A DNA stretch of 28,528 bases from positions 1-28,528 of the IMG/VR virus record IMGVR_UViG_3300043429_000647. One strand, written 5' to 3'. Below, piece after piece: positions 2,107 to 20,806 of this stretch. The DNA is from a virus. The position numbers and the translations under genes were made by a program. Below the pieces are notes generated by a model. That model was not told the origin of the DNA and searched no databases. It saw only the letters and a program-made list of their open reading frames with translations. How positions within the stretch are numbered: the stretch's first letter is position 1; every line of letters starts with the position of its first letter.

Positions 2107-2328
2107 ATGTACACCTTCGACATATTCCGCGGGGAAAACTTCTCCGTTTGCCTCGGGCATTACTCAACCCGGCACCACGCAGACTCTGCCGCTTTTGAGT
2201 CGTTTACGCGGCACGCAGCCAAGCCCGAAAACGCCGGAGCCCGCTGGCAAGTCCGCCAATGCGTCTACGACGGCGAAGGGGATTTGGACCATACGGTGCT
2301 CGTCACTGAGTACGTCGCGACCGCTTGA
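2107..2328 (+). CDS. Small hypothetical protein
   Basis: A 73-residue protein starting MYTFDIFRGENFSVCLG. It starts one base after the preceding stop, in the string CCTAACATG. The aromatic-rich, alternating sequence suggests a compact beta/alpha fold. No family is recognised. Its TGA stop lies inside TTGACA (2325-2330), one of several TTGACA hexamers at gene boundaries here, but no -10 box is evident 17 bp further on. Confidence 0.65.
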   Translation: MYTFDIFRGENFSVCLGHYSTRHHADSAAFESFTRHAAKPENAGARWQVRQCVYDGEGDLDHTVLVTEYVATA

Positions 2329-2390
2329 CAGAACCAAAAACAGAACGAGAAACCCACGCCCATGATGGGCACACCCTAACCGAAAAAACC

Positions 2391-3038
2391 ATGGAAACAC
2401 AGACACAAGCAATCGTCCAGCAAACTCCCGAAGCTGCCGCCTTCGACCTGATGCAGCGGCGGGCCAAGCTACTAGCCAACTCGTCACTCGTCCCCAAGGA
2501 ATTCGTTGGCAGCGTCGCCAACTGCGGCATTGCCTGCGAAATCGCCGACCGCCTTGGAGCCTCGCCGTTTATGGTCTGCCAGAATGTTGATATCATCCAC
2601 GGGCGACCGTCCTTCCGTGCCACGTTCCTGATTGCGATGGTCAACGCATCGGGGCGTTTCTCGCCACTCCAGTTCCGTCTGGAGGGGCAAGGCAAGGACC
2701 GCTCATGCGTTGCTCACTGCCGCGACAAGGCGACTGGAGAAATCATCGAAGGCCCGCCCGTGAGCATGGCGATGGCGGAAGCGGAAGGGTGGAGCACGAA
2801 GGCCGGATCCAAATGGAAAACCATGCCGGAACTGATGCTCAGATACCGAGCCGCGGCGTTCTTCGCTCGCCTCTATGCGCCCGACATTACGTTAGGGCTT
2901 CAGACTGCCGAGGAGGTGGAGGACATCCGCGCAACCGAGCGCAATGTGACGCCCGTCAAGCTCTCGCTGCCGGAGCCGGAGCCAGCGCTGGACGTTGCCG
3001 AGGCGCAGGAAGAGGCCGCGGAAGGAGGTGCAGAATGA
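2391..3038 (+). CDS. RecT-like single-strand annealing recombinase
   Basis: A 215-residue protein. The core (residues 18-180) has the pattern of RecT-related phage annealing proteins: FDLMQRRAKLLANSSLVPKEF, ADRLGASPFMVCQN, IIHGRPSFRATFLIAMVN, then WKTMPELMLRYRAAAFFARLYAPDITLGLQTAEE. The tail (185-215) is Glu/Ala/Pro-rich and probably disordered. Such proteins pair complementary strands at ends resected by an exonuclease, and a RecE-like nuclease lies at 4344. ATG 2391 is chosen over an in-frame start at 2325 because it follows the typical CCTAACCGAAAAAACC leader and the extra residues are not conserved-looking. It overlaps the next gene by ATGA. Confidence 0.8.
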   Translation: METQTQAIVQQTPEAAAFDLMQRRAKLLANSSLVPKEFVGSVANCGIACEIADRLGASPFMVCQNVDIIHGRPSFRATFLIAMVNASGRFSPLQFRLEGQGKDRSCVAHCRDKATGEIIEGPPVSMAMAEAEGWSTKAGSKWKTMPELMLRYRAAAFFARLYAPDITLGLQTAEEVEDIRATERNVTPVKLSLPEPEPALDVAEAQEEAAEGGAE

Positions 3039-4331: not shown

Positions 4332-4347
4332 CCATCACACACCATGA
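4330..4347 (+). repeat. 18-bp leader repeat, copy 2 (matches 637-654)
   Basis: An exact copy of the 637-654 leader, spanning the end of the amber-interrupted gene and the exonuclease start ATG 4344. It is another case of a reused A/C-rich start leader in front of an unrelated gene. Confidence 0.75.
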
Positions 4348-5126
4348 CCATCAGCGAATATCGCGCACATTCCGCGCTTAACTACTCACTAGCCAAGCAC
4401 TTGCTCCGCAGTCCGGCGCATTTCCGCTGGCAGGAGGAACACCCGATTGAGCCCACCGAGGAGATGCGGATGGGCACCGAAATACACAAGGTGCTGACTG
4501 GCGAGCCTGTCGTTGCCATCCAAAGGCCGGAGCACAACCCGGAAGACCCGGAAAACCTCTGGCACGGGAACAAGAAATGGTGCCGCGAATGGCTCAAGGC
4601 CCACGACCCTAACACGGTTTACGGGCTGGATGCGTTCGCCGCAATTCACGGCTGTACTGACGCCATCAACACCAGCCCGCTCGCGCAAAGCCTCCTGCGA
4701 GCCTGTGACCTCCGGGAGTTCCCGATTGTGGGCGAGTACGCCGGAACACCCATCAAGGGCTTGTTGGACGCCGTGGGGACGGACGCAAGCGGGCGACGCT
4801 TTATCCTAGATATGAAGACGACCAACGACGCCAGCGCAGAAAAATTCGGGTGGAAGGCTCGCGGCATGATGTACCACATGCAGGCTGCGTGGTATTGCTA
4901 CCTGTTGCAGCAAGCGGAGCGACTGGACTACCTGCCTGCCTTTATCTGGTTGGTCCCGGAGACTGAGGCGCCTTATGCCGTCGCTGCCTACCAGGCCGAC
5001 GAGGACGCAATGCGCCGCGGCGCCGACCTGATGGCGACCGCCGTGGACCGTTACCAGCAGGCGCAGCAGTCCGGCAAGTGGGCTGGGTATCCTAGCGAAA
5101 TTCAAACCCTAACCGTTCGCTGGTAA
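4344..5126 (+). CDS. RecE-like PD-(D/E)XK exonuclease (DUF3799/YqaJ-like)
   Basis: A 260-residue protein. Visible motifs, in order: S-K-H-LLRSPAHF-W (15-29), GTEIHKVL (44-51), GLLDAV with D142, FILDMKTT with D156 and K158 as the D...(D/E)xK pair, and YHMQAAWY (177-184) as the QxxxY motif of RecB-type nucleases. This matches phage nucleases related to exodeoxyribonuclease VIII that degrade one strand from double-strand ends and pass the other to a RecT-type annealer, here at 2391. The start has the duplicated CACACACC leader. The stop overlaps the next start (TAATG). Confidence 0.85.
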   Translation: MTISEYRAHSALNYSLAKHLLRSPAHFRWQEEHPIEPTEEMRMGTEIHKVLTGEPVVAIQRPEHNPEDPENLWHGNKKWCREWLKAHDPNTVYGLDAFAAIHGCTDAINTSPLAQSLLRACDLREFPIVGEYAGTPIKGLLDAVGTDASGRRFILDMKTTNDASAEKFGWKARGMMYHMQAAWYCYLLQQAERLDYLPAFIWLVPETEAPYAVAAYQADEDAMRRGADLMATAVDRYQQAQQSGKWAGYPSEIQTLTVRW

Positions 5127-7036: not shown

Positions 7037-7242
7037 CATTCGCCGAAGTTTACGCCGATTTCGCGGCAGGCAAAGCGATCACGCTAGGCAACGAACGAGG
7101 GCACCAAGTCATATACAAGCTGATGCGCGGGAGAATCCATATCAAATACCCTTATTGGGACACATGGATCAAGCGCGACAACATCCACATTGAGGCCCTA
7201 ACGTCTAGAGACTGGAACAAAACAACCGCAGAAGACACATGA
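7033..7242 (+). CDS. Small hypothetical protein with GTG start
   Basis: A 69-residue protein, (M)TFAEVYADFAAGKAITLGNE..., then YKLMRGRIHIKYPYWDTWIK. GTG 7033 is chosen because it overlaps the upstream TGA (GTGA) and follows GGAGG at 7023-7027. A start at 6997 would lie inside the previous gene. It overlaps the next gene (7239) by ATGA. It is aromatic and basic; family not recognised. Confidence 0.65.
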   Translation: MTFAEVYADFAAGKAITLGNERGHQVIYKLMRGRIHIKYPYWDTWIKRDNIHIEALTSRDWNKTTAEDT

Positions 7243-7457
7243 ACTGGCAACCGATTGAGAGCGCGCCGAAGGACAGCACTTGGGTCTTGCTCTGGCAAGC
7301 CGGCTGGCAGGCACCATTGACAGGATTCTGGTGCGAAGATTACTACGGAGTGCCCAAAGCTCCGCACTGGGTCTTTTGTAATCCGTGGGCATTCAGTCGC
7401 GGCCAACCAACCCACTGGATGCCGCTGCCCCCACCCCCAACCACAGAAACCGAATGA
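7239..7457 (+). CDS. DUF551-type phage protein
   Basis: A 72-residue protein with the DUF551 signature: MNWQPIESAPKDSTWVLLW at the N-terminus and THWMPLPPPP at the C-terminus. DUF551 proteins are frequent in phages and prophages; their role is unknown. It overlaps its neighbours on both sides by ATGA. The next gene starts with nearly the same residues, so the two look like a tandem duplication. Confidence 0.8.
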   Translation: MNWQPIESAPKDSTWVLLWQAGWQAPLTGFWCEDYYGVPKAPHWVFCNPWAFSRGQPTHWMPLPPPPTTETE

Positions 7458-7771
7458 ACTGGAGACCGATTGAGACAGCGCCGAAAGACCGCCCCGTGTT
7501 TGTCAGGGTGGTTGACCTTGCTGGGTTTGCTCATGCCCTGAAGTCTGGCAAGCCCAGCGAAAGCATGCTCCCCGGAATAACAGCATGGACGACCTATCAC
7601 CCGAGTGCAGGGTTTACCATTTGCGACATCCGGACTACGGTGCAGTGGGACGCCGATGCCTCGCCCCCAACCGTCAACGAATCGTTGACAGTTCCCCTCG
7701 ACAACGACCTTGACGAGCCGCTGGGCAAGGCGTGCTCGCTGGAAAACCCGGAGTGTGAATCATGCAGTTGA
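7454..7771 (+). CDS. Second DUF551-like protein, diverged
   Basis: A 105-residue protein starting MNWRPIETAPKDRPVFVRVV, clearly related to the N-terminus of its upstream neighbour, but without the WMPLP end. The C-terminal half (TVNESLTVPLDNDLDEPLGK and ENPECESCS) is different and Cys-containing. ATG 7454 overlaps the previous stop; an in-frame extension to 7385 is a shadow of the previous gene. TGA 7769-7771 is embedded in TTGACA. Confidence 0.7.
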   Translation: MNWRPIETAPKDRPVFVRVVDLAGFAHALKSGKPSESMLPGITAWTTYHPSAGFTICDIRTTVQWDADASPPTVNESLTVPLDNDLDEPLGKACSLENPECESCS

Positions 7772-9276: not shown

Positions 9277-10244
9277 GCCAAGTCATCACAGACAAGTATG
9301 CACTTTACAACGGGGACTGCTGCGAGGTTATGCCTACGCTGCCAGACCAATGCGTTGACCTGTCCATTTACAGTCCGCCGTTTTGCGGCCTTTACAACTA
9401 CAGCAGCGACGAGCGCGACCTATCGAATTGCGGTAGCTACGACGAGTTTTTCAATCATTACGAATTCGTCGTCAGTCAGATTGCACGCCTAACAAAGCCG
9501 GGACGGATCACGGCGGTGCATTGCATGGACATTCCAAGCTCCGTAAACGCCGGGAATCACCTGACGGATTTTCCGGGTGACATCATCCGACTGCATGAGC
9601 GACTGGGATTCAGATACATCGCAAGGCATTGCGTGTGGAAGGAACCTCTTGGCGTGCGTCTCCGGACCATGGCAAAGGGACTTGCGCACAAGACTATCGT
9701 GGAGGATTCCAGTCTTTGCGATGTTGCGTCCGCTGACTACCTGCTTTTGTTCCGTCGCGATGGTCAGAACAAAATTCCGGTAGCTCATCCGACAGGACTC
9801 CACTCCTATGCCGGGGAAAAGCAGATGCCTGCGGAATTGTTGAAGTACAAAGGCCACGAAGGAAAGCAGACCGAAAACCGCTTCTCCCATTGGATCTGGC
9901 GAAACTACGCATCAGCCTTCTGGGATGACGTGCGCATCGGTCGCGTGCTGCCGTACAAGGATTGCAAAGACCCAGAAGACGAAAAGCACGTTCATCCGCT
10001 CCAGCTTGACGTAATTGAACGGGTGGTAGTGCTGCGGTCAAACCCCGGCGAAACCGTGCTGACTCCTTTTCTTGGTGTCGGATCAGAGGCATACGGCGCG
10101 ATCCTCAACGGTCGCCGGGCAATCGGAGTGGAGCTGAAGCGCGCCTACTTTCTCCAAGCGGTTAAGAACTGTGAGGAGGCGGCGAAGGGTAACGTGGCGG
10201 AAGAGGTTCCGCTGCTTGCCGGGGTGGATGACGAAATGGATTGA
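9267..10244 (+). CDS. DNA methyltransferase, beta-class order (N4-cytosine or N6-adenine)
   Basis: A 325-residue protein. The catalytic motif SPPF (36-39) comes near the N-terminus after YNGDCCEVMPTLPDQCVDL, and the AdoMet-binding loop TPFLGVGSEAYGA (266-278) near the C-terminus, so motif IV precedes motif I. SPPF more often goes with N4-cytosine enzymes, but N6-adenine activity cannot be excluded. The middle (RLRTMAKGLAHKT...SADYLLLFR) should hold the target recognition region. It overlaps the helicase gene by 10 bp, which suggests a joint complex. No restriction nuclease is visible, so self-protection against host restriction is the likely role. Confidence 0.85.
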   Translation: MDLSQVITDKYALYNGDCCEVMPTLPDQCVDLSIYSPPFCGLYNYSSDERDLSNCGSYDEFFNHYEFVVSQIARLTKPGRITAVHCMDIPSSVNAGNHLTDFPGDIIRLHERLGFRYIARHCVWKEPLGVRLRTMAKGLAHKTIVEDSSLCDVASADYLLLFRRDGQNKIPVAHPTGLHSYAGEKQMPAELLKYKGHEGKQTENRFSHWIWRNYASAFWDDVRIGRVLPYKDCKDPEDEKHVHPLQLDVIERVVVLRSNPGETVLTPFLGVGSEAYGAILNGRRAIGVELKRAYFLQAVKNCEEAAKGNVAEEVPLLAGVDDEMD

Positions 10245-10432: not shown

Positions 10433-11351
10433 ATTTTTCACGCACGAGGAACTCTACGAAGCCGAAGCAAAAACGAAACTCCCGCTGCGCCTCGCGTACG
10501 TCGGACTGTGGTGCGTTGCCGACAGGGAAGGGCGGTTCCGGTGGCAGCCTCGCAGGCTGGGCGTCCAGATCATGCCTTACGACTCGGTGGATTTCGACGC
10601 CATCATGGAAGCGCTCCTGGCTGCTGGATTCGTGGACCGATACGGCGAGGAAGGTGAGTTCGGGGTCATTCCTAGCTTCTCCCGACACCAGTGCATCAAT
10701 GCCCGCGAAGCCGCCTCAAAGCTGCCCGATCCGGCGGTTTCACCGAAACGCACATGCATGCACGTGCATGCACATGAAACGCACGTGCAAGATTGTGACG
10801 CGCCACGTGCAGGATCGTCACGCGTGAAGTGCAAGACTGTGACGCGTGAAGTGCATACACGTGGGGAAGGGAATGGAAGGGAACAGGAAGGGAGCATGGA
10901 AGAGGAACTGTCTTCTGCGGTTCCTGCGTCGGCGATGCCGACTCCAGAGCCCGCGCCAAAAAAGCCGAAGCCAGTCAGCGATGAGGAAAAGGACCGAAGG
11001 CACCACGAAATCACATCCCGCATCCGGGGAGTCTACGAAACCGCGACAGGAAATCCGTTTATCATGGACGGGAGGTTCCTGAAGCGCCTACAAGTTTTCC
11101 TGTCGTCTGCCCCGGACATGACGGCAGACGAGTTCCTTGAGACGTACAGGCAGGCTGTCAGCGTAGAACTCGGGCAATTCACGCCCACCGAAATCATCAA
11201 GGCGCACACACCTTCGTTTTTTACGGACAACTTCATGGTCGTCCGCGGGCTCATTGAGCGAGCGCAAGCAGCATCACCACGCGGACCCAAGACCTACGAA
11301 CAACTGGAAGCCGAACACGCCCCAGACACAAACTCCGAATTCGGATTCTGA
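10407..11351 (+). CDS. Phage replication initiator (lambda O-like organisation)
   Basis: A 314-residue protein. Residues 1-110 are a winged-helix domain of the type starting RIRTIKPEFFTHEEL, with LPLRLAYVGLWCVADREGRF, LGVQIMPYD and IPSFSRHQCINAREAASKLP; this is a common phage replication-protein N-terminus. Residues 112-185 are a variable, polar linker encoded by DNA iterons and a purine-rich tract. Residues 190-300 form a helical C-terminal domain (YETATGNPFIMDGRFLKRL..., TDNFMVVRGLIERA) that may contact the loader encoded next. DNA binding to its own gene at 10764-10866, as lambda O does, is inferred from the layout. Confidence 0.8.
   Translation: MRIRTIKPEFFTHEELYEAEAKTKLPLRLAYVGLWCVADREGRFRWQPRRLGVQIMPYDSVDFDAIMEALLAAGFVDRYGEEGEFGVIPSFSRHQCINAREAASKLPDPAVSPKRTCMHVHAHETHVQDCDAPRAGSSRVKCKTVTREVHTRGEGNGREQEGSMEEELSSAVPASAMPTPEPAPKKPKPVSDEEKDRRHHEITSRIRGVYETATGNPFIMDGRFLKRLQVFLSSAPDMTADEFLETYRQAVSVELGQFTPTEIIKAHTPSFFTDNFMVVRGLIERAQAASPRGPKTYEQLEAEHAPDTNSEFGF
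10764..10866 (+). repeat. 22-bp iterons inside the initiator gene: candidate replication origin
   Basis: GTGCA-starting repeats begin at 10785, 10807, 10829 and 10851, exactly 22 bp apart, with a degenerate copy at 10764 (21 bp before the next). The three best share GTGCARGAYYGTSACGCG. A perfect 18-bp palindrome, TGCATGCACGTGCATGCA, lies at 10756-10773, and TCACGCGTGA at 10818-10827 is also palindromic. Because 22 is not a multiple of 3, the repeat moves through all reading frames, so the DNA and not the protein is what repeats. Lambda has its origin iterons at the same place in O. Confidence 0.8.
10863..10907 (+). other. Purine-rich tract next to the iterons
   Basis: A 45-base stretch with only four pyrimidines and four GGG runs (GGGGAAGGG... 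to GGAAGGGAG) follows the last iteron. Strand-asymmetric tracts beside iterons are typical places for origin opening. The four G-runs could also form a G-quadruplex, though two of the loops are long. It encodes the polar part of the linker of the initiator. Confidence 0.5.
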
Positions 11352-17083: not shown

Positions 17084-18709
17084 ATGCCCGCACTCAAGCT
17101 CCGCACATATCAGCTTCCCGTCTTTCTCTTCCGCGGGAAGTTTCTGTTAGTGGAGTTTGCGCGGCAGACTGGGAAGAGCTTCACGCTAGCAAACTGGGCA
17201 GTAGCCCGGATGCTTGAGCGGCTGGCAAAGCATCCTTCGTGGCTCATCGTCGTCATCAGCAACAGCCGCGCCAACGGGGTTGAGTTTGGCCAGAAGATTT
17301 CCGATGTCCTAACGACCGTTAAGGAGGTGGATAGCTTCCTTCGCGAGGAACCGGATGCCGTCACCGATGGCGACCGCGAAGCGCTAGGAGGCGACCCCAT
17401 CGAAGTCGAGGACTTCTTTCAGCGCATGGAACTGCGGATTGGCAACAGGCGAGGGCGCATCCTCGTGCTGGCTGCCAGTCCGCGGACGGCACGCGGTTTC
17501 TCCGGGGATCTGATCCTTGACGAATTCGCCTTCCATGAGCACGCGGAGCGCATATGGGACGCCGCGGAACCTATCATATCCGCCAACCCTGAATTCGTTG
17601 TTAGGATTGCCAGCACGCACAACGGGGACGGCACCCTTTTCAATCGGTGGATCAAGGAGGGGAAGCTGCCGTCGTTTTCCGTGCGCCGCTCCGACGCCTG
17701 GCACATGGGACGCGGCAGCAAGCAGCACCTAGACGCCTTCGCGGACCGCTGGCGCAAGCTGGACCCCAAAGCATGCGAGGCGTGGCTGGCTCGCTCCGGC
17801 GGTGAGGCGCAACCACAGGACCGAATTGTTATCGGGAGCCTCCACCGCATCAACGAAGACGGGACACCCGCGGAAGTCACCCCCGAGGAACGGGAGGCGG
17901 AAGCCGGCTTCGAGCGGCAGACGTACCGCCAAAACTACGAGAATGAGCCATACCATGGCGACAACCTGCCCTTCTTAAGCTGGGACTTGATCAGCCGCAG
18001 CATGACCGCACCCGCGTTTGCGCCGGACCAGCAGGCATGGGCAGACAGCACCCTTGCAAGCCTCACCAGGCACCACGGCAACGCCTCGCTCTACGTTGGG
18101 CAGGACTTCGCCCGAAACGGGGACTTGTCGGTGGTGTCCGTCCTAGCAGAATCCCAAGGCTCCTGCGTCCACGTTGCACGGCTGGAAATGCGCGACCAGA
18201 CGACGCCCCACCAACGCCGACAGATGGAGCGGCTGATGGCGACCGTGGGCGGACGCATCCAGCGGGTCGTCATGGACATGACTGGAAACGGCACCGGGCT
18301 TTCGGATGAGTTGGCGGAGCGGTACGGCAGTCTGATTCTCCCTGTCCATTTTGCCAGCACCGTGCCCCTTGATGACGTGCTGAGGACATCGGGCGACAAG
18401 CGGGCAACCATGCTGATTTCGGAGCGGATGGCAGTGGATTTGCAGCGCAGCATGGAGGACGGCAAGATTTCCCTGCCCCATGACGACGCACTCCGCGAGG
18501 ACATGCGCAAACCGTGCCGCGTCATCCGTGGGAGCCGGGTGCTGGTGGCAGCAGCCAAGGACTCTAACGACCACGCGGACAGGTTCTGGTCGATCGCCCT
18601 CGCGCTCCATGGGTACTTCACCGACGGCCTCGGCGGCTGGGACATGGCAGACCTCAATGCGGTTGAGGTCGGCGCACCTGAGTTTGACGGGTTTTTCTCG
18701 CGGTGGTGA
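17084..18709 (+). CDS. Terminase large subunit (Mu gp28-like)
   Basis: A 541-residue packaging motor. The ATPase part has Walker A ARQTGKS (26-32), Walker B LILDEFAF (143-150) and the coupling motif ASTHNGDG (176-183). The RNase-H-fold nuclease part has QDFARNGDLSV (D341, D347), VVMDMTGNGTG (D398) and DHADRFW (D499) as metal-binding acids. Length and order match phage large terminases. It would cut concatemeric DNA and pump it through the portal (19397). The start ATG 17084 lies behind TAGCACA, with no Shine-Dalgarno sequence. Confidence 0.92.
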   Translation: MPALKLRTYQLPVFLFRGKFLLVEFARQTGKSFTLANWAVARMLERLAKHPSWLIVVISNSRANGVEFGQKISDVLTTVKEVDSFLREEPDAVTDGDREALGGDPIEVEDFFQRMELRIGNRRGRILVLAASPRTARGFSGDLILDEFAFHEHAERIWDAAEPIISANPEFVVRIASTHNGDGTLFNRWIKEGKLPSFSVRRSDAWHMGRGSKQHLDAFADRWRKLDPKACEAWLARSGGEAQPQDRIVIGSLHRINEDGTPAEVTPEEREAEAGFERQTYRQNYENEPYHGDNLPFLSWDLISRSMTAPAFAPDQQAWADSTLASLTRHHGNASLYVGQDFARNGDLSVVSVLAESQGSCVHVARLEMRDQTTPHQRRQMERLMATVGGRIQRVVMDMTGNGTGLSDELAERYGSLILPVHFASTVPLDDVLRTSGDKRATMLISERMAVDLQRSMEDGKISLPHDDALREDMRKPCRVIRGSRVLVAAAKDSNDHADRFWSIALALHGYFTDGLGGWDMADLNAVEVGAPEFDGFFSRW

Positions 18710-18734: not shown

Positions 18735-18770
18735 TGGACAGATTGGCGGGGTGGTGTAGAGTGTCGGCAC

Positions 18771-19004
18771 ATGAAACCCCAACACTACACACTCCCCGAA
18801 GGATGGCTGATGCTCAACCGCTGCGCCGCCCCGACCGCCAGTGGGCAGATTGACCTCGTTTTGACGTTTGATTTTGCCACCGGGATTAAGCACCTTGATG
18901 AGGTGCGAGACGGCAAGCAGTCAACAATCCAGAGCGGCGAGCCAGCTCAAGCGACCTACGACAGCATAGTTGCCAAAATGCCAGGCGTGGTTGTGTTTGC
19001 GTAA
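18771..19004 (+). CDS. Small hypothetical protein, moron-like position
   Basis: A 77-residue protein, MKPQHYTLPEGWLMLNRCAA, then GQIDLVLTFDFATGIKHLDE and AKMPGVVVFA. It appears soluble with a beta-rich centre. It sits alone between terminase and portal, a place normally without a gap, has a shared 14-bp element upstream and a strong terminator 27 bp downstream. A single gene with its own signals inside a late module is the layout of a moron. Start ATG 18771; an in-frame extension to 18732 covers the gap and is less likely. Function unknown. Confidence 0.65.
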   Translation: MKPQHYTLPEGWLMLNRCAAPTASGQIDLVLTFDFATGIKHLDEVRDGKQSTIQSGEPAQATYDSIVAKMPGVVVFA

Positions 19005-19030
19005 CCACTGCCGTCACCAACCTCCGACCA

Positions 19031-19056
19031 ACCCCACCCGAAAAGGTGGGGTTTTT
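19031..19056 (+). terminator. Intrinsic terminator, hairpin 1 of 4
   Basis: ACCCCACC (19031-19038) pairs perfectly with GGTGGGGT (19045-19052) around a CGAAAA loop and is followed by TTTTC. It is a textbook rho-independent terminator for the 18771 gene. TTGACA starts 7 bp further on (19063). Confidence 0.9.
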
Positions 19057-19128
19057 CGTGTCTTGACATCGGGGCGCGGCGCGGTATCGGCGCGAAGATG
19101 CGCAGCGGGGCTCAGCCTCCGTCATCGG

Positions 19129-19161
19129 CCCCAGTCTGGAAATCTCCGGGCTGGGGTTTTT
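19129..19161 (+). terminator. Terminator-like hairpin 2 of 4
   Basis: CCCCAGTCTGG (19129-19139) pairs with CCGGGCTGGGG (19146-19156), eleven pairs with two G-U, loop AAATCT, then TTTTT (19157-19161). The 72 bp between hairpins 1 and 2 hold no clear gene. Confidence 0.8.
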
Positions 19162-19217
19162 GCTTGCGGCGGACGACTGCGGTGGCAGGGTCCGTCATGT
19201 CCCCGCCTAACAACCAA

Positions 19218-19247
19218 CCGTCACCTCTCCGGGGGTGGCGGTTTTTT
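19218..19247 (+). terminator. Terminator-like hairpin 3 of 4
   Basis: CCGTCACC (19218-19225) pairs with GGTGGCGG (19234-19241) with one G-U, loop TCTCCGGG, then six T (19242-19247). TTGACG follows 2 bp later (19250). Confidence 0.85.
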
Positions 19248-19322
19248 GTTGACGCCGCGCCTTGCCTGCGCTACCTGCTGGCACTGCCTGAGTGGGCGGT
19301 GTGTATTGTGAGTTCATGCGAG

Positions 19323-19356
19323 CGGCCCGGATTAACCCTCCGGGCCGTTTCGTTTT
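19323..19356 (+). terminator. Terminator-like hairpin 4 of 4
   Basis: CGGCCCGG (19323-19330) pairs perfectly with CCGGGCCG (19340-19347), loop ATTAACCCT, then TTTCGTTTT. TTGACA follows at 19362-19367, just ahead of the portal start. The whole 19005-19396 stretch (392 bp) holds only these four hairpins and TTGACA-like hexamers; I see no convincing gene in it. Confidence 0.8.
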
Positions 19357-19396
19357 CCCGCTTGACAAAAGACGCCAACAATATTTGCGGGCGTCA

Positions 19397-20806
19397 GTGC
19401 CTAGCAAACTCCGGACCCGCTCAAAACTTGCGCAGGGGATCACCGTGCCCGCGGACAACGATGGCGGATGGGCTGGCTCCGGGTATGTGGATGTGGTCGA
19501 GCGGCTGATTCAGCCGCAAACCGCCGAAAGCATCCTGCGCGGGGCATGGGGCGGGGACATGAGTCAGCAGTTCAACCTGTTCATGAGCATGATGGACACG
19601 TGGGCGCGGCTCGCGGACAACATGCGGACGGTCGAAAACGCCCTAACAGGTGCGCCGTTTGACGTCCAGCCCGCGACCGATGAGGAAGGCAACGCCTCAG
19701 ACATCGCCAAGGAAAAGGCGGAGTTAGTCAAAGAGGCGCTTAAAGGCATGCGCCCCAATGCAGCAAAGCGCGAACTCGGTCGCGATGGTGTGCTGAAAGC
19801 GCTCGCTCGCGGATCCGTCACCGGGCACGCCGTGCTGGAAATCCTCTGGCATCGGCGCGAGGTTGGCGGACAAGCTGCTATCTTGCCCCGTTGCTGCGTC
19901 AATGTTGGACCTCGGTGGTACGGCTACCCTAACAACACCGGACCGCTTCAGTTTCGCAATCAACAGGCGACGTGGGAAGACTTCCCGCCTAACAAATTCT
20001 TGGTGCATGTGGTGCCTGCCACAGATGCGCACCCTAGCCAAGCCGGACGCATTCGCACGCTGGTCAAATACTGGAGTTACACCACGTCAGCGTGGCAGTG
20101 GCTCCTCCAGTATACCCAGCGTTTCGGCATGCCGTTCCGTTGGGCTACCTATCGCAAAGAGTCTAGCCAGGTGCGGACCGCATTGGGGCAGATGATGCAG
20201 AATATCGGAGCTTCGGGATGGGGCGTGTTTCCGGAAGGGACGAAGCTCGAGCTCCACGAATCCGGTGCGAACGCCAAGGACCTGCCTCAATCCTACGTCA
20301 TCAGCGAAGCGGACAAGGCTTGCGATCTTGTTATCAGGGGCGAGACCGCGAGCAGTGGCACCGATGGCAATCAGGGGCTTGGCAATACTGGCGAGGTTTA
20401 CGCAGGCGTTAGGCGTGAGGCGATGCAGGGTTACTGCAACGACGCAGCAACCACACTGCAAAGCCTAGCCGAAATGGTCATCCGTCTGAACTACGGTGAG
20501 ACATCGGAGATGCCCACGGTCGTCTGTGAGATCCCATCCCCGCAGGATGCTGTGGCGCTGGCGCAACGAGACGAAATCCTTGCCAGAATGGGGCTTGCAA
20601 TCCCTGACCAATTCCTCCGCGAGCGTCACGATGTACCCGCTCCGACAGAGGGAGAAGCTACCGTTAGCGCCCCCAAGCCGCAGACGCTGACGGCAGCGAA
20701 GGCTCCAGCCGATAGCAAGCTAGAAGGCGTCATCGAGCGGCTGTTAGTCGCCGGAATCCTTGGCGGGAATGCAATCTGGGAAGAGCAAATGAAGGAGGCA
20801 GAATGA
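19397..20806 (+). CDS. Portal protein (DUF935, Mu gp29-like)
   Basis: About 469 residues. The start region reads (M)PSKLRTRSKLAQGITVPADN. The core has SQQFNLFMSMMDTWARLADN, APFDVQPA, VTGHAVLEILWHRREVGGQA, a WLLQYTQRFGMPFRWATY block and ADKACDLVIRGETASSGTDG, as in DUF935 portals. The dodecameric portal ring is the DNA gate of the head. The frame is open from 19292 (GTG) and ATG 19316, but these lie in or before hairpin 4; GTG 19397 is preferred because SKLRTR-type starts are usual in the family. TTG 19385 and GTG 19445 are alternatives. Confidence 0.85.
   Translation: MPSKLRTRSKLAQGITVPADNDGGWAGSGYVDVVERLIQPQTAESILRGAWGGDMSQQFNLFMSMMDTWARLADNMRTVENALTGAPFDVQPATDEEGNASDIAKEKAELVKEALKGMRPNAAKRELGRDGVLKALARGSVTGHAVLEILWHRREVGGQAAILPRCCVNVGPRWYGYPNNTGPLQFRNQQATWEDFPPNKFLVHVVPATDAHPSQAGRIRTLVKYWSYTTSAWQWLLQYTQRFGMPFRWATYRKESSQVRTALGQMMQNIGASGWGVFPEGTKLELHESGANAKDLPQSYVISEADKACDLVIRGETASSGTDGNQGLGNTGEVYAGVRREAMQGYCNDAATTLQSLAEMVIRLNYGETSEMPTVVCEIPSPQDAVALAQRDEILARMGLAIPDQFLRERHDVPAPTEGEATVSAPKPQTLTAAKAPADSKLEGVIERLLVAGILGGNAIWEEQMKEAE

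Follow-up and report, generated by a model that had tools for sequence, protein, structure and literature searches.

Why four terminator-like hairpins should stand in a row between the terminase and portal genes of a phage is the question raised by positions 19005 to 19396 of a 28.5-kb virus record, which was analyzed over its whole length and is called the window here. It touches on a wider and unsettled one, namely by what route small accessory genes enter and leave phage genomes while the operons around them stay intact. The portal gene to the right of the interval is of the Mu type, as is the protease gene of the same phage. Searching IMG/VR revealed six relatives (G001 to G006). G001 is approximately the same phage, with 1 base differing over the 900 bp compared. 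The portal proteins of the others are identical to that of the window at 97% (G002), 70% (G003), and 57% (G004 to G006) of amino acids. A search of a phage collection with the window DNA revealed no similar DNA, and alignments of the portal and terminase against genome_contigs revealed no relative. Among the characterized portals listed, that of Akkermansia phage Chantilly had the top bit score, with 25% identity; in this phage, an endolysin gene precedes the portal gene.

Table 1. Features of the terminase-portal interval, its flanks, the recombination genes, and an element in three relatives
Feature	Position	Strand	Remarks
RecT-like annealing protein	2325..3038	+	phrog_561, E 1.1e-71
Exonuclease VIII-like protein, likely RecT partner	4344..5126	+	phrog_412, E 3.9e-53; DUF3799
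Terminase large subunit gene	17084..18709	+	PF03237/PF17289, phrog_2; left flank of array
P1, predicted promoter	18735..18762	+	TGGACA-16-TAGAGT; ATG 8 bp past -10 (near-leaderless)
Slot 1 cargo, predicted 77-aa ORF	18771..19004	+	Upstream of hairpin 1; no known family
Hairpin/putative terminator 1	19030..19053	+	Fold, filter, G002 comparison
P2, promoter-like	19063..19090	+	TTGACA-16-TATCGG; weak -10
Slot 2, nearly empty	19091..19126	+	Unrelated DNA in G002
Hairpin/putative terminator 2	19127..19158	+	Fold, filter; in island 19128-19203, 92%
P3, predicted promoter	19164..19200	+	TTGCGG-16-CAGGGT, TG before -10, then ATG
Slot 3, empty	19201..19212	+	Genes in G002
Hairpin/putative terminator 3	19216..19243	+	Fold, filter, G002 comparison
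P4, promoter-like, weak	19249..19277	+	TTGACG-17-TACCTG
Slot 4, candidate structured RNA of ~79 nt	19278..19356	+	5' hairpin 19282-19301, linker, hairpin 4
Hairpin/putative terminator 4	19322..19348	+	Fold, filter
TTGACA before portal	19362..19396	+	~35 bp ahead of portal start; weak -10
Mu-type portal gene	19397..20806	+	PF06074, E 2.4e-62; GTG start; right flank of array
Candidate antisense element, G004 to G006	L031:9790-10010, L034:755-975, L033:4530-4750	-	Follows promoter-ORF-terminator unit

Hairpins and promoter-like elements

Folding of the four hairpins gave minimum free energies of -16.3, -24.9, about -22, and -24.3 kcal/mol for hairpins 1 to 4, with z-scores between -2.8 and -5.2. 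Both strands of the window were passed through a strict filter, which required a stem of at least about 8 pairs, at least 5 G-C pairs, and a T-rich tail. The plus strand of the 392-bp interval contained five matches, compared to a mean of 0.022 (maximum, 1) in 1,000 dinucleotide shuffles; the fifth match is the weak hairpin at 19282-19301. The whole window contained eight matches versus 1.4 in shuffles, and the three matches outside the interval are close to this shuffle figure. Hairpins 1 to 4 are strong intrinsic-terminator-like structures and are predicted to stop transcription. BLAST comparison of the junctions, each comprising a hairpin and the element behind it, aligned only the T-tract and its neighbors (7 to 21 nt; E of 0.02 or worse). 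The first-pass annotation, made from the letters alone, had reported four such hairpins, TTGAC behind hairpins 1, 3, and 4, and stems that share no sequence, and it was correct on all of these points. The idea of a repeated mobile motif was rejected because the junctions are common only in short stretches around the T-tract. A search of Rfam with the window and five relative loci revealed nothing at the gathering threshold, and the subthreshold matches of the array (Trp_leader, 21.8 bits versus a cutoff of 41) were taken as chance.

Analysis of the DNA behind the hairpins revealed TTGACA or TTGACG at 19063, 19249, and 19362 (hairpins 1, 3, and 4) and TTGCGG at 19164 (hairpin 2). TTGAC occurs 46 times on the plus strand of the 28.5 kb; by arithmetic from these 46 sites, its presence within 15 nt behind three of four hairpins has a chance probability of roughly 6e-5. 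A promoter model was trained on the sigma-70 consensus together with cassette promoters taken from G002 and from G004 to G006, with the window sequence left out. Among 56,976 window positions, it ranked P3 5th and P1 76th (top 0.13%), followed by P2 at 262 and P4 at 365 (top 0.7%) and the portal-proximal element at 2736 (top 5%), the last three having poor -10 elements. P3 resembles the cassette promoters of G004 to G006. An ATG lies about 6 to 9 bp past the -10 element of P1, of P3, and of two counterparts in G002 and G004, and this distance suggests near-leaderless transcripts. For P1 to P4, promoter activity is a prediction from these motifs and ranks. Inspection by eye placed TTGACA roughly 35 to 56 bp before the portal start in the window and in G002 to G006; the portal-proximal TTGACA is likely a late promoter.

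Conserved junctions and replaced cargo in a related phage

Comparison with G002 revealed that all four hairpins are kept, each with a promoter-like stretch behind it, in islands whose DNA is 92 to 97% identical; the series occupies about 1.4 kb there, compared to 0.37 kb in the window. Each island begins at a hairpin foot and holds the hairpin, the T-tract, and the promoter-like element. Positions 19032-19090 correspond to 9516-9574 of G002 (94.9% identity), 19128-19203 to 9696-9771 (92.1%), and 19213 onward to 10765 onward. The tail of hairpin 1 and P2 are identical over about 39 bp. The three cargo segments of G002 all end at hairpin feet (to within about 4 nt), and none is related to the cargo of the window.

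Stem covariation, which the first-pass annotation had proposed as a check, was examined against G002 by eye. In hairpin 1, both bases of an A-U pair have been substituted to give G-C, and a second pair has become a G-U wobble. Hairpin 3 carries three single-sided substitutions, all of which leave the stem paired. No change was seen in hairpin 4, and the one in hairpin 2 affects its outermost base, the only place in the four stems where a pair is broken. Thus, there is one compensatory change, and the remaining stem changes, apart from this outermost base, keep the pairs. The junctions are conserved at 92 to 97% versus 78 to 80% in the adjacent terminase gene, and third codon positions of the portal gene are 71% identical. 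The two phages share identical stretches in coding DNA as well, the longest being 609 bp, so junction identity alone is weak evidence of constraint.

The slots between the junctions hold different DNA in the two phages. For the predicted 77-aa ORF in slot 1 of the window, searches of Pfam, PHROGs (all E values 0.19 or higher), and the phage collection revealed no match, and no homolog was found beyond near-identical G001; G002 carries another 77-aa ORF here, unrelated to that of the window. Slot 2 measures about 37 bp in the window versus about 122 unrelated bp in G002. Slot 3 measures about 10 bp, whereas its G002 counterpart spans about 990 bp and carries protein genes, namely, a 111-aa ORF, the gene of a staphylococcal-nuclease-like protein (SNase; PF00565), and then, behind a further promoter, a 79-aa gene at 10509-10748 (L027/L028). 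The 79-aa protein belongs to phrog_22104, whose members also occur in Pseudomonas, Stenotrophomonas, Xanthomonas, and Variovorax phages and are about 47 to 50% like it; it also has a weak SM-ATX similarity. Slot 4 lies inside a 142-bp run that is identical in G002, and its fold has a z-score of -4.5. The G+C content of slot 1 is 0.566, compared to 0.622 for the terminase gene, 0.600 for the portal gene, and 0.585 for the whole window; the cargo ORFs (0.54 to 0.59) are only slightly lower than 0.59. A long ORF running through hairpins 2 to 4 (19098-19508) was rejected as coding because, by eye, five of the six affected junction-2 codons differ nonsynonymously from G002.

Interpretation of the array and rival explanations

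Since G002 keeps the junctions while the cargo between them differs, the interval is probably a series of four terminator-promoter junctions that, between the terminase and portal genes, bracket "moron" slots with exchangeable contents. On entering a slot, a transcript would run to the hairpin that closes it and stop there, and the promoter right behind this hairpin would start the next slot, so that cargo could be expressed independently. In the window, slot 1 would be filled by the 77-aa gene, slots 2 and 3 would be nearly empty, and slot 4 would be a fixed, structured, and possibly RNA-coding unit; the last junction would open into the portal operon. The near-empty slots would account for a row of four terminators with no genes between them, and slots 2 and 3 would have lost cargo rather than never have carried any. 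Over evolution, the junctions would be kept and the cargo swapped. Two related phages with the same insulated joints and different or no cargo thus offer a concrete picture in which cargo is loaded while the promoter before it and the terminator after it are both retained.

The first-pass annotation had offered tandem short transcription units, that is, a set of small RNAs, or a strengthened barrier ahead of the late genes. Tandem units are the right kind of structure, with a promoter-like element for each hairpin and joints kept in G002, but the cargo consists partly of protein genes. Four small regulatory RNAs of 50 to 100 nt, each with its own promoter and terminator, are an unlikely explanation. 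The promoter-like element behind each hairpin would suit them, as would the fold of slot 4 and its identity in G002, and the fold of slot 2 together with hairpin 2 is more stable than those of shuffles (z of -3.2). However, slot 1 carries an ORF, slots 2 and 3 differ from their G002 counterparts, which in slot 3 contain protein genes, the G002 slot 2 folds no better than shuffles (z of -0.9), and no Rfam family reached threshold. With an ORF in one slot, protein genes in G002, and near-empty slots, most of the proposed units lack support as small RNAs; slot 4 is the only good small-RNA candidate of the array and a plausible one.

The barrier reading, in which several terminators in series separate the early or terminase genes from the portal operon or are passed only with a late antiterminator, would fit four strong terminators, and the TTGACA ahead of the portal gene in every relative could restart transcription behind them. 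We nevertheless consider it improbable. A simple barrier has no need of promoter-like elements among its hairpins and would be undone by them, and G002 has cargo genes between the terminators. The terminase and portal genes flank the spot in G002 to G006, each with different small genes in between, and in none of these relatives were the two genes found next to each other. In the more distant G003, an SNase gene without terminator-like hairpins occupies the spot, so the array is unlikely to be a required barrier. G004 to G006 have one plus-strand terminator hairpin in a promoter-small ORF-terminator unit whose ORF is different in each, an arrangement that also favors the slot reading. A third explanation, that the hairpins are decaying leftovers, terminators of formerly held cassettes that are now functionless except for unit 1, would agree with the nearly empty slots 2 and 3 and with the weak -10 elements of P2 and P4. 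It is very improbable, given that the stem substitutions preserve pairing and that the junctions are better conserved than the adjacent terminase gene.

In G004 to G006, a hairpin-rich element of about 190 nt was also seen on the minus strand, antisense to the portal operon. It ends in a terminator-like hairpin and is strongly conserved, although the flanking proteins are just 57 to 60% identical to those of the window. Searching Rfam revealed no family at the gathering threshold; the best subthreshold match was ctRNA_pGA1 (29.1 bits versus 45), mostly through the terminator hairpin. The element is a candidate antisense RNA.

Known modular systems and recombination genes

A moron is described as an accessory unit with its own promoter and terminator, placed between genes that are adjacent in relatives (PMC4378225; Juhala 2000 as cited in PMC7067206). 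Further marks of a moron are a base composition that differs from its neighbors, expression from the prophage, and dispensability for growth. Judged by sequence, P1, the 77-aa ORF, and hairpin 1 form a unit with its own predicted promoter and terminator. As with morons, small unrelated ORFs are swapped among relatives at one spot between conserved genes, each preceded by a promoter-like element and closed by a terminator-like hairpin; unlike in morons, the units stand in tandem, share kept terminator-promoter joints around changing cargo, and may be nearly empty. In Pseudomonas Mu-like phages, regions of genomic plasticity are known for which no common flanking sequence was found (PMC4378225). 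These phages have a related portal family and small accessory ORFs at fixed genome places, whereas the cargo here is flanked by conserved terminator-promoter joints. In the head-gene module of SPP1, moron genes are known that have transcription signals on either side (PMC6316719), so the genome position of the array is not unheard of.

In T4-like phages, the PeSL combines a terminator stem-loop with a promoter between accessory genes and is a proposed mediator of gene shuffling (Arbiol 2010 and Comeau 2014, as the passages citing them in PMC4503421 and PMC3950731 present them). To the extent of that description, the four junctions are alike in joining a terminator stem-loop to a promoter-like element (weak in P2 and P4) and in the replacement of cargo between conserved junctions in the window and G002. 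PeSLs recur many times in a genome as copies of a single conserved motif; the four junctions, in contrast, are not copies of one motif, and the phage, with its Mu-type portal and protease, is not a T4-like myovirus. The array works like a moron cluster or a set of PeSL linkers, but it falls outside the PeSL definition in phage type and in the single repeated motif.

Scanning IMG/VR with hairpin 4 and junction 2 matched G001 and G002 alone, and the array was seen in one lineage, comprising the window, G001, and G002; elsewhere, the only recurrence of a junction is in G006, where 30 bp match hairpin 1. Because they are not one motif, exchange would run between matching junctions of related phages. 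The conserved joints probably provide the homology for it, and the phage's own RecT/exonuclease pair, encoded by genes about 1.3 kb apart, may perhaps carry it out. Annealing proteins of the RecT type recombine diverged sequences (PMC3945230), which would make joints of 40 to 140 bp plausible exchange points. We tentatively propose, as a possibility, that the position-specific joints are recombination linkers of a multislot array, driven by RecT and the exonuclease, through which cargo is loaded or lost with both signals intact. If so, a PeSL-like system would exist in an unrelated phage group, and the finding would bear on the acquisition of morons, called "mysterious" in PMC4378225. RecT was found in the window and G005 only, several of the records being fragments. 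A search of five records, fragments among them, for a phage integrase (PF00589) and a resolvase (PF00239) revealed neither.

Two further observations concern repeats. A 55-bp stretch, noticed in the comparison with G001, occurs twice in the window (7223-7277 and 7438-7492, about 215 bp apart, 80% alike). Direct end repeats of 127 bp are present in G003 (33.6 kb; L029/L030) and in G006 (34.3 kb; L034/L035), which, judging from these repeats, are probably complete circular assemblies.
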